Part shown: piece by piece, positions 35,286 to 38,703 of the stretch
Numbering within the stretch: position 1 is the stretch's first letter
Layout: the number at the start of each line of letters is the position of its first letter
NCBI GenBank assembly: GCA_017505535.1
Contig: JAFVPD010000013.1
Span: 1 to 64,000 of the forward strand
Source of the DNA: Muribaculaceae bacterium
GTDB lineage: Bacteria; Bacteroidota; Bacteroidia; Bacteroidales; Muribaculaceae
Length of the DNA stretch: 64,000 nucleotides
Reading direction: 5' to 3'
Made by a program: the position numbers and the translations under genes
The notes under the pieces: model-generated
What the model was told of the DNA's origin: nothing
Database searches by the model: none
The model's input: the letters and a program-made list of their open reading frames with translations, nothing else

Positions 35286-35711
35286 ATGAAAAATTTTTTC
35301 TTTTCTTTTGGAGTTATTCTAATCATAAGTCTTAGTGCTTGTGGTGGTGGCGATTCACTAACAAAAAATTGCAATTCACCTGAAGAAGAGTTGCAAGTTA
35401 TTCTGCAGAATGATGGCTGGGAGTTAATCTCTAATTCTACTAATATTTATCGAAAAGAACTGAGTTATGACGGGGGCTACGACTGTAATTATTGGTATAC
35501 AGCATCTATTTTCTGTAAAGAAAATGGTGGTCAAACCAAATATATCGTAGCAAGAGTGGTATATAACGATACTGATGCACAACGACATAGCGATGGAAAG
35601 CTTAAGTATAAAACCTTTTCTATTGTTGAATGCGATTATACTAGCAAATATGGGACTCCGTATAATGGCTATATAAATGATGGGGGCTCTACTGGTTATC
35701 TAAATTATTAA
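35286..35711 (+). CDS. Small lipoprotein, unknown
   Basis: A 141-aa protein with a signal peptide and lipobox (IISLSACGGGDS), so a probable lipoprotein. The mature part contains EEELQVILQNDGWELISNST, repeated Tyr and a Cys pair (YDCNYWYTASIFC) and ends with Gly/Tyr/Asn-rich sequence. I recognise no family. Codon use is AT-rich compared with the neighbours, a sign of recent gain or weak expression. The stop overlaps an ATG of the next gene. Confidence 0.7.
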   Translation: MKNFFFSFGVILIISLSACGGGDSLTKNCNSPEEELQVILQNDGWELISNSTNIYRKELSYDGGYDCNYWYTASIFCKENGGQTKYIVARVVYNDTDAQRHSDGKLKYKTFSIVECDYTSKYGTPYNGYINDGGSTGYLNY

Positions 35712-35722
35712 TGATTTGTCAT

Positions 35723-36070
35723 ATGAAAAAATTACTACTATCCATTTGTGTTATTTTAGCTCTATGTCTAAGCGGAAATAGTCAAGAATCTTTTGCTACT
35801 AACACTAAAAAGGCTTCTGTTTCAGCCGAATTATTGGCTCAAAACAATAGATATCAATATCTTGGATCAATTACCGCATATTTCATTAATCAATATGGAC
35901 AATGGCAAAAAAATACCACTCTTAATTTTGGACTTTATTCTGATGCATATGGGAACAAAGTTATTGGTTGTTCAAACAGATATGGCACTTCTTTTCATAA
36001 TATAGTTTCAAGTGATTATCGTGATTTTAGATTTGCGTTCTATTGTCATGGTTGGTATTATTTCAACTAG
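35723..36070 (+). CDS. Small exported protein, unknown
   Basis: A 115-aa secreted or periplasmic protein. The ATG at 35723 begins a good signal peptide (MKKLLLSICVILALCLSGNS); an earlier ATG at 35711 overlaps the lipoprotein stop. The mature part is beta-rich and Tyr/Asn-rich (AYFINQYGQWQKNTTLNFGL, then YSDAYGNKVIGCSNRYG). No family recognised. AT-rich like its partner, with which it is probably cotranscribed. Followed by a strong terminator. Confidence 0.68.
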   Translation: MKKLLLSICVILALCLSGNSQESFATNTKKASVSAELLAQNNRYQYLGSITAYFINQYGQWQKNTTLNFGLYSDAYGNKVIGCSNRYGTSFHNIVSSDYRDFRFAFYCHGWYYFN

Positions 36071-36091: not shown

Positions 36092-36138
36092 ATAACGAAT
36101 GTTACTATTCCTTTTTTGGGGTAACATTCGTTTTTTAC
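36092..36138 (+). terminator. Intrinsic terminator after the small exported protein gene
   Basis: AACGAATGTTAC (36094-36105) pairs with GTAACATTCGTT (36121-36132), 15-nt loop, followed by TTTT. A-rich sequence precedes it. Confidence 0.85.
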
Positions 36139-36182: not shown

Positions 36183-36214
36183 TTTGTAGGATTCAAAAAT
36201 AACTCATACCTTTG
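36183..36214 (+). promoter_or_regulatory. Strong Bacteroidetes-type promoter ahead of the structured-RNA locus
   Basis: TTTG (36183-36186), 20-nt spacer, TACCTTTG (36207-36214): a complete consensus match. Transcription should start near 36221, 40 nt before the 19-codon ORF. No long gene follows for over 500 nt. Confidence 0.8.
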
Positions 36215-36260
36215 TTGCATCAATCCATAAAACGCACGAAATTTTCAATAATTAAATGCT

Positions 36261-36320
36261 ATGAACAGTATCTCAATGAATTTAGCTCAAATATTTAGAC
36301 GACGGCATCACGCTACATAG
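36261..36320 (+). CDS. Putative 19-aa leader peptide ending RRRHHAT
   Basis: ATG to TAG encodes MNSISMNLAQIFRRRHHAT. It lies 40 nt after the predicted transcription start. Three Arg codons (AGA, CGA, CGG) and two His codons sit just before the stop, inside a hairpin (36291-36346), as in leader peptides that sense ribosome stalling. No amino-acid biosynthesis gene follows, so a direct attenuator of that kind is unlikely; a translation-stress or efflux response is possible. Coding is unproven. Confidence 0.35.
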   Translation: MNSISMNLAQIFRRRHHAT

Positions 36321-36457
36321 TGAGGTCCAAATATTCGTTTAAATATGTTTTGCTGTGTTCATTGACGTATTGGACGCCGATTATGGTTGTGGGGCAATGG
36401 TCCTGCCATATTTTCGGCAGTCGTAGTTGATAGCTCCAATCAATTGCGACATTCTCT

Positions 36458-36495
36458 TTGTCAACCCATTTCTTTTCGGTTGACAATTATTCTTT
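36458..36495 (+). terminator. Terminator-like hairpin closing the structured transcript
   Basis: TTGTCAACC (36458-36466) with GGTTGACAA (36478-36486), perfect 9-bp stem with 11-nt loop, followed by TTATTCTTT. The T run is interrupted, so it may be an attenuator rather than a strong end. Confidence 0.55.
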
Positions 36496-36760
36496 CCAGC
36501 CACAGGTAGCCAACAACCTGAGTCTAAGCTTTTTCCACATAACTATGGGGGGGGTGATAACAAAAGACTTTGCAACTCACCCTTTCAGGACTCATTCTAA
36601 GGTATGAGATACTATATATTATGGTTGTCAGATGTCCAGATTAAATCTCTATGCATAATATAAACAGTATCTCTTACTTTTTATGGCTTTACAATTGGCT
36701 GGGAAATAACTATTTATTCTTTATCTAATTATTTTTTCAACAATTTTAAAGCATTTAATT
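36496..36760 (+). other. AT-rich spacer with a G8 tract and small hairpins
   Basis: Holds a run of eight G (36547-36554), GGGTGA/TCACCC (36552-36557/36577-36582), CTCAT/ATGAG (36591-36595/36604-36608) and a second copy of AACAGTATCTC (36663-36673; first copy 36264-36274). No gene, and no promoter with a full consensus, was seen. It could be the rest of a long leader for the gene at 36761. Confidence 0.4.
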
Positions 36761-37105
36761 ATGAAACAGACAACTTCTAAAAACAACAGCTCAAACCAAT
36801 CATCAGTTATCGTTCTCAACGCCGACAACACCACAACAATCCATTCTACGAAGGGCAAAAGTCGCGCTTTTACATCAAGAGTGGCAAAACAGCATCGTTG
36901 TGACCGCATCACCTCTCGACTCAGTCGAAATATCGCCCACTATGGCGTTACCATTGAAACTGACCACGCTCTCAACGTGTGTCTTTGGGGGCATGTTGAT
37001 AATGTCAACATTGTAGGACTCACAAAGTATCTCAATCTTGAACGCATCAAGATGAAAGATTTGCTCTTGTGGGACAACGGAGAATTTATGCTCATTTTAA
37101 AATAA
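36761..37105 (+). CDS. Orphan 114-aa protein, unknown
   Basis: I do not recognise this protein. The N-terminus is Ser/Thr/Asn-rich and polar (residues 1-35), followed by a basic segment with a predicted helix (KSRAFTSRVAKQHRCDRITS, SRLSRNIAHYGVTIETDHA) and a C-terminal part with Leu-rich strands (LNVCLWGHVDNVNIVGLTKY). No signal peptide or membrane segment: cytoplasmic. It is followed at once by a perfect terminator, and a palindromic region then precedes the second efflux operon. A regulatory role is suggested only by position and basic charge. Confidence 0.65.
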   Translation: MKQTTSKNNSSNQSSVIVLNADNTTTIHSTKGKSRAFTSRVAKQHRCDRITSRLSRNIAHYGVTIETDHALNVCLWGHVDNVNIVGLTKYLNLERIKMKDLLLWDNGEFMLILK

Positions 37106-37111
37106 CAGCAA

Positions 37112-37149
37112 TAAGGGCGATAAACAGCGATTTATCGCCCTTAATTTTT
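37112..37149 (+). terminator. Strong intrinsic terminator after the orphan gene
   Basis: AAGGGCGATAAA (37113-37124) with TTTATCGCCCTT (37131-37142), 6-nt loop, then AATTTTTC. Confidence 0.9.
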
Positions 37150-37185
37150 CCTCTGTGATTATTGAACTTTTAACGTTCCTCATCT

Positions 37186-37231
37186 GTTATTTATAATAAG
37201 GGACTTATAGAAATTCCCTATTATAAATAAC
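37186..37231. promoter_or_regulatory. Long inverted repeat before the second efflux operon
   Basis: GTTATTTATAATAAGGGA (37186-37203) pairs with TCCCTATTATAAATAAC (37215-37231) over 17 bp with a single bulged A; the loop is 11 nt. It ends 17 nt before the ATG at 37249. No T run follows, so it is not a normal terminator. It may be an operator for a dimeric repressor or a hairpin hiding the translation start. Confidence 0.6.
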
Positions 37232-37248
37232 TATATCTTCTAATTCCC

Positions 37249-38703
37249 ATGATTAAATTTATTATAACACTCTCTCTAATCTTGTGCCCGGCCATACCAC
37301 TCTCGGCACAAACCGATTTGGTCACACTCGATTCTTGTAGGGCAATGGCATTAAAACACAATCGCCAATTAAAAATCAAGCGTCTCAACATCAAAGCAGC
37401 CGATTATCAACACCAAGAAGCTACTGCCGCGTTTCTTCCTGCTATTGACTTTTCGGGAGGATATTCCTATAACCAGAAAAAACTATCGGTCTTTGATAGT
37501 GACCAACTACTTCCAACAAAAACTTTTAACCCGGCCACCGGCAATTATGAATTTAATCTGGTTAAAAATCCAACAACCGGAGAGCCAATAAAATCGCCCG
37601 ATGGGCAATATATCCCCGAGACAGTAGCTCTTATCCCCAAAGAATCCATGACCTACGACGTTCATAACGTATTCTTCGGAGCAATAACAATCTCTCAACC
37701 GATTTATATGGGCGGAAAAATTTTGGCAATGAACCGTCTCTCAAAATTTTCCCAAAAACTTGCCACAACTCTGCTTGACCACGAGACCGAAGAGGTTATC
37801 TGTGCCGTAGATGCCGCTTATTGGCAAGTCATCTCCCTGTCGGCTAAGCACAAATTGGCCTTGAGCTATATCACATTGCTCGATTCTCTGCGTATAAATG
37901 TAAATGCGATGCTCAACCAAGGAGTCGCAACAAAAGCCGATTTACTCAACATCGAGGTAAAGCTCAACCAGGCACAAGTCGATCTCGCTCGAGTGGAAAA
38001 TGCTTCTACCCTTGCACTAATGGCCCTTGCCAAAATCTGCGGTCTGGACCTTAACACCACCCTTTTGCTTCCCAACGAGCTCTCAGCAACGTCGCTCCTG
38101 CCTCAACCAAATATTAACGATAGCCTCAACCATGTTTTGGCTCGCCGTCCCGATTACCATGCACTTGAACTCGGAGTAAAAATGCGACAACAGCAAGAAC
38201 GCATCGCACTCTCTGAAATGCTCCCAAACGTGGCAATGGTGGGCGCCTATACATTTAGCAATCCAAACATGTTTGATGGATTCTCCAAACGCTTTGACGG
38301 CGCTTTTTCCATTGGAGCAATGGTAACCATTCCCATTTGGCATTGGGGTGGCGATTACAATAAATACCGCATTGCTAAAACCAACGTCAATATCGCGAAA
38401 CTTTCGCTCGACGAAGCTCGTGACAACATCGCCTTACAAGTTTCACAAGCCACACACAAAGCGCAAGAAGCACAAAAAACATTGATTGCCGCAACGACTC
38501 TACTTGACAAAGCCAATGAGAACTTGCGCATTGCCATGATTTCATTTAAAGAAGGGGTTATTCCCTCTTCCGATGTCATGGAGGCACAAACAGCCTGGCT
38601 CAGTGCTCAATCTCAACTGATTGATGCAAAAATCGAGGTGAGACTATGCAACCTTTATTTATCAAAAGCCCTTGGGACTTTACAATATGACACAAACTCT
38701 TAA
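37249..38703 (+). CDS. TolC-family outer-membrane efflux protein
   Basis: A 484-aa protein with signal peptide (MIKFIITLSLILCPAIPLSA). Two OEP repeats with coiled-coil helices (LDSLRINVNAMLNQGVATKA, MLNQGVATKADLLNIEVKLN, later ATTLLDKANENLRIAMISFK) and beta strands; FFGAITISQPIYMGG is the membrane-facing motif. First gene of a four-gene pump operon with adaptor and two ABC-2 permeases. Not closely similar to the first TolC of this window by eye. Confidence 0.9.
   Translation: MIKFIITLSLILCPAIPLSAQTDLVTLDSCRAMALKHNRQLKIKRLNIKAADYQHQEATAAFLPAIDFSGGYSYNQKKLSVFDSDQLLPTKTFNPATGNYEFNLVKNPTTGEPIKSPDGQYIPETVALIPKESMTYDVHNVFFGAITISQPIYMGGKILAMNRLSKFSQKLATTLLDHETEEVICAVDAAYWQVISLSAKHKLALSYITLLDSLRINVNAMLNQGVATKADLLNIEVKLNQAQVDLARVENASTLALMALAKICGLDLNTTLLLPNELSATSLLPQPNINDSLNHVLARRPDYHALELGVKMRQQQERIALSEMLPNVAMVGAYTFSNPNMFDGFSKRFDGAFSIGAMVTIPIWHWGGDYNKYRIAKTNVNIAKLSLDEARDNIALQVSQATHKAQEAQKTLIAATTLLDKANENLRIAMISFKEGVIPSSDVMEAQTAWLSAQSQLIDAKIEVRLCNLYLSKALGTLQYDTNS

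Follow-up and report, generated by a model that had tools for sequence, protein, structure and literature searches.

A candidate structured leader predicted to close on the start codon of its own small gene in a Bacteroidales-type genome

A self-contained unit, probably comprising an undescribed and unusual structured RNA, was located in the 64-kb window, i.e. the whole stretch of 64,000 nucleotides analysed, which consists of unremarkable chromosomal DNA from a Bacteroidales-type draft genome of 2.3 Mb, 90.6% complete. The first choice among the explanations, with a probability of about 0.42, is a structured leader, apparently restricted to the lineage, that would cover the start of the gene behind it, ORF114, and act in cis as a translational lock. 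A processed stable RNA follows as a close second.

Table 1. Computed features of the unit and its borders, in 5' to 3' order.
Feature	Position	Strand	Remarks
Terminator-like hairpin behind the upstream orphan genes	36094..36138	+	stem 36094-36105/36121-36132, 12 bp inverted repeat, 100%, T-rich tail; bounds the unit on the left
Promoter TTTG-N20-TACCTTTG, of the sigma-ABfr type found at tRNA genes	36183..36214	+	predicted transcription start ~36221
P1 5' arm	36250..36260	+	pair probability 0.95-1.0
19-codon ORF MNSISMNLAQIFRRRHHAT	36261..36320	+	probably chance
Hairpin A, long, imperfect	36266..36372	+	includes 12-bp helix 36291-36302/36335-36346
Hairpin B	36376..36418	+	predicted fold; flagged terminator-like
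Hairpin C, 12 bp	36420..36450	+	predicted fold; flagged terminator-like
Hairpin D, 9 bp, 11-nt loop, T-rich tail	36458..36486	+	weak terminator candidate
Domain E, branched, closed by 10-bp helix	36493..36705	+	predicted fold
P1 3' arm	36750..36760	+	abuts ATG of ORF114
ORF114, orphan gene, 114 aa, pI 9.8	36761..37105	+	host-like codon usage, no relatives found
Strong terminator	37112..37150	+	13 bp, T-run; sets the unit apart from the efflux operon (from 37249)

To the left of the unit lies a small orphan gene pair (35286-36070), to its right a conserved efflux operon that begins at 37249. It is made up, from 5' to 3', of a terminator-like hairpin, a promoter, a long leader, one gene of 114 codons and a strong terminator (Table 1). 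The orphan pair consists of two small overlapping genes with signal-peptide-like starts, the first one lipoprotein-like; a family match was not found for these genes.

The promoter is composed of TTTG (36183-36186), a 20-nt spacer and TACCTTTG (36207-36214), with zero mismatches to the sigma-ABfr consensus of TTTG near -33 and TAnnTTTG near -7 (PMC7366714). A full consensus promoter had been claimed here by an earlier sequence-only reading of this DNA, and the claim was confirmed: with both strands counted, the 64 kb contain only four perfect matches, one at the unit, one inside a gene, and two immediately upstream of tRNA genes, of which the window has no others. BLAST with the promoter stretch gave short matches in 19 of 149 family genomes, mostly upstream of tRNA genes, and because its look-alikes are placed in this way the promoter is assigned by sequence to the class driving stable RNAs. 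Transcription from it is what we infer; for a small gene kept locked, a promoter of the tRNA class would be unusual. A part of the promoter, TAACTCATACCTT at 36200-36212, recurs inverted within domain E (36599-36611, 12 of 13 bases). A similar promoter elsewhere in the same genome (contig C26:3160; L002:1501-1850) drives a stretch without Rfam match; a terminator-like hairpin and T-run close its first ~110 nt, which represent a candidate small RNA.

The fold was compared with shuffled sequences. Positions 36215-36495 fold at -87.3 kcal/mol, versus -58.0 +/- 4.3 for the shuffles (z -6.8; none of 200 shuffles equal), and the 12-bp helix of hairpin A, noticed in the sequence-only reading, is present in these better-than-chance surroundings. 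A second, branched domain (36492-36707) reached z -5.4 and the whole 546-nt unit z -9.5. Among 256 windows of 500 nt covering both strands of the 64 kb (mean z -0.8, sd 1.5), the 500 nt from 36231 ranked first with z -7.9, and the next non-overlapping window reached -5.9. Pair probability averaged 0.92 for the unit as a whole and 0.96 for hairpins A-D. The RNA is thus probably larger than the interval 36183-36495 to which it had been assigned: that this interval belongs to a structured RNA was upheld, but the end at 36495 was not, since the second domain and the closing helix lie beyond. The helices described as nested at 36369-36440 were recovered as two separate hairpins (B and C). The hairpin of 9 bp at 36458-36486 exists as described; as a terminator it is only a weak candidate, not flagged by the terminator scan.

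The leader is closed by P1, an 11-bp long-range helix that encloses about 500 nt and whose last paired base immediately precedes the ATG of ORF114. In the full 930-nt transcript P1 was predicted at 0.95-1.0, covering the ORF114 start region. When transcripts of increasing length were folded, the local hairpins appeared early and P1 only at the end, and with the 5' arm kept open the predicted pairing of the start region dropped from 0.68 to 0.44. The duplex energy of P1 was matched by 14 of 5000 shuffled pairs. P1 is A/T-rich, and of 44 further gene starts in the window one makes a better duplex with its 5' arm; both points are counted against the lock. Where translation starts is governed in this phylum by mRNA structure and by bases such as the A at -3 rather than by Shine-Dalgarno sequences (PMC6847099), and for this reason a P1-type helix over the start should repress translation of ORF114. 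The stretches before the 19-codon ORF (36242-36270) and before ORF114 (36734-36771) are loosely alike (TTTTCAAYAATT ... TATGAAxCAG), possibly as a duplication scar or by A/T-rich chance.

From these predictions we infer masking in the cell, its trigger and any role of ORF114 as follows. A single transcription unit would extend from ~36221 to the strong terminator and carry ORF114 as its one protein gene. The leader of ~540 nt would be highly structured, with hairpins A-D and domain E folding locally; P1 would then join the 5' end of the leader to the bases right before the ATG and mask the start. ORF114 would be made only if P1 were prevented or undone, and possible openers are a bound protein, an sRNA, a ligand, cleavage, or a ribosome on the 5' arm. 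Counted in favour of the lock are the perfect promoter, the excess of the fold over chance, the surplus of G.U over A.C on the + strand, the predicted strength and placement of P1, and the host-like codons, A at -3 and own terminator of ORF114.

ORF114 itself has A at -3, and its stop lies six bases before the terminator stem. The product is basic and non-hydrophobic (GRAVY -0.39). Families above cut-off were not found in Pfam, PHROG, NCBIfam or PADLOC, and no relatives were found in the genus, family, order, genome_contigs, viral contigs, phages or plasmids searched. An AlphaFold model computed without alignment (pLDDT 38) was unusable.

The comparison with Rfam 15, which took in OLE, ROOL, GOLLD, 6S, tmRNA, RNase P and riboswitches, gave only the two tRNAs of the window at gathering score, and no match near threshold was obtained in a permissive search. 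Assignment of the unit to any described RNA family was therefore rejected. The earlier claim of a promoter-driven structured RNA outside the described families is supported by the perfect promoter, the fold excess and this lack of an Rfam match. The sequence-only reading had also named a decayed gene as a possible refutation; this was not borne out against a structured RNA, because all six frames of the unit, read through, were without Pfam match or protein remnant, and a decayed protein gene was rejected.

Relatives of the RNA were searched for by several routes. BLAST within the genus gave chance-level matches only; in the 149 family genomes only the promoter stretch was matched. Matches in 393 order genomes fell mostly on the A/T-rich stretch 36704-36775, and none covered the fold. 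Phages, plasmids and viral contigs contained no match to the unit, and back-translated frames found no relative in genome_contigs (84,980 species) or viral_contigs. Covariance models of the RNA gave weak matches, and those inspected lie in genes or have no promoter. Such a search had been proposed in the sequence-only reading: its statement that no described family is recognised was supported, and for conservation of the helices in relatives no homologue was found to score. Since no homologue was found in the collections searched, there is no covariation behind the fold, which is counted against the lock. The RNA is apparently lineage-restricted. As a sign that it is unique, the absence of relatives is weak, because the genomes compared are distant relatives (best efflux-protein identity 52-62%), the covariance models were built from one sequence, and scans of the collections detect close relatives only.

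The closest competitor to the leader acting on ORF114 is a stable independent non-coding RNA of ~490-540 nt, transcribed from the tRNA-class promoter and freed by cutting in P1, with ORF114 as a neighbour on the primary transcript. This is somewhat unlikely, although it fits the promoter class, which is that of tRNA genes, better than a lock does, and P1 surrounds the entire folded RNA like a processing stem. Its release would have to be by cutting, since the terminator scan gave no hit at the 3' end of domain E. However, P1 ends exactly on an ATG that opens a gene-like ORF, and this ORF has a terminator to itself, an arrangement needless for an independent RNA, and the lack of detected conservation would be unusual for a housekeeping-type RNA. 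Precursors of rRNA have a strong stable-RNA promoter and long-range processing stems that enclose the folded RNA and are cut in the flanks. The unit resembles them in its stable-RNA promoter and enclosing long-range stem, but no rRNA or tRNA lies inside. A wider proposal, which must be regarded as quite unlikely, is a new Bacteroidales class of large RNA: a self-closed RNA of ~500 nt, produced at high level from a tRNA-type promoter and followed at once by the gene of a basic partner protein, ORF114, which would become accessible on opening or cutting of P1, so that both would form an RNA-protein module.

The predicted lock was compared with known systems. The hok mRNA of the hok/sok type I toxin-antitoxin system (PMC4147584) shares with the unit an exceptionally long, structured 5' leader, concealment of a small gene's start by pairing between distant ends (predicted for the unit), and an upstream small ORF, the counterpart of which in the unit looks like chance. 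In hok the lock is provided by the mRNA's own 3' end (PMC4147584), whereas the predicted lock of the unit lies within the leader. In addition, hok encodes a small membrane toxin under control of the antisense RNA Sok (PMC4147584), whereas ORF114 is a non-hydrophobic protein of 114 aa. A search of the unit's minus strand for an antisense promoter gave one-mismatch candidates but no perfect match. Pairing of the ends over the start was found as a prediction in the full transcript, but the unit was not placed among hok-like type I toxin-antitoxin systems: its protein is not a hydrophobic toxin of small size, and beyond these promoter candidates there was no sign of an antisense RNA.

In Bacteroides, where the median 5' UTR is 32 nt (PMC7366714), the hypothetical gene BT_4401 is preceded by a 462-nt 5' UTR with small ORFs (PMC7366714). 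Compared by length and setting alone, that leader is like the one described here in being very long, in preceding a hypothetical gene and in having the same promoter type. The large ornate RNAs OLE, ROOL and GOLLD (PMC12286853) share the size class and the structure density, but their Rfam models give no match in the unit, and ROOL and GOLLD are found in phages or prophages (PMC12286853) whereas the unit lies in an ordinary chromosomal setting.

If the lock is true, a tightly folded leader of 540 nt, driven by a tRNA-class promoter and closing on the start codon, would mark an extreme of translational control, and this in a phylum not using Shine-Dalgarno sequences. If the unit is a stable RNA instead, it would be a large one. 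In either case an RNA evident by its fold would be invisible to comparative searches, because no close relative is among the collections searched.

Transcription attenuation in the leader, by which hairpin D (or C) would stop most transcripts at ~36490 to give an RNA of ~270 nt and readthrough would lead to ORF114, appears improbable. The 9 bp and T-rich tail of hairpin D would suit this, as would the terminator-like flags on B and C, but hairpin D was itself unflagged and has an 11-nt loop. No competing antiterminator pairing was seen among the partial transcripts folded, and the strong domain E and P1 downstream would be left without a role.

Palindrome-rich DNA, e.g. a mobile-element remnant, that folds by accident and is not an RNA element is about equally improbable. 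With z -4.7 the minus strand of the unit, too, is folded better than expected by chance, which is counted against the lock as well; the unit was found in a single genome only, and the loose likeness of the stretches before 36261 and 36761 would also fit. Palindromic DNA would fold alike on both strands. However, in the helices common to the predicted folds of both strands, G.U pairs outnumber A.C on the + strand by 18 to 4 (p ~0.005, base composition allowed for), an indirect indication that favours selection for pairing in RNA from the promoter's strand. The promoter, moreover, reads into the better-folding strand. Also against such DNA, the unit is single copy in its own genome, by which a multicopy element was rejected, has no match in phages, plasmids or viral contigs, and is without protein remnant in six frames.

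The 19-codon ORF ending RRRHHAT is present as the sequence-only reading described it, but not beyond chance expectation: when the stretch is shuffled, 63% of the resulting sequences contain an ORF of 19 codons or more on the + strand. Its synonymous codon usage falls in the lowest 1.4% of 19-codon pieces from the window's genes, and it starts in a poor context, with G at -3 and an overlapping ATG five bases upstream. On account of the shuffle frequency and the atypical codons the ORF is probably chance, though it may be translated. Its Arg codons are AGA, CGA and CGG; genuine rarity holds for CGG alone (12 of 588 Arg codons), CGA being common enough (115). A leader peptide with regulatory codons, as had been suggested, is at odds with both the chance-level ORF and its atypical codons.

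The weakest explanation, a leader-peptide attenuator of the downstream efflux operon, could point to the location of this ORF within hairpin A, but it is hardly credible given the poor start and chance level of the ORF, and it was ruled out as a candidate by the 13-bp terminator and ORF114, which intervene, and by the lack of synteny. The efflux operon is found across the genus, and in 10 related genomes it is preceded by unrelated genes and by no such leader, so that this part of the sequence-only reading was abandoned. Directly before the efflux operon lies a 46-bp near-palindrome (37186-37231; 21-nt arms, 86%), which could be an operator for a pump repressor.
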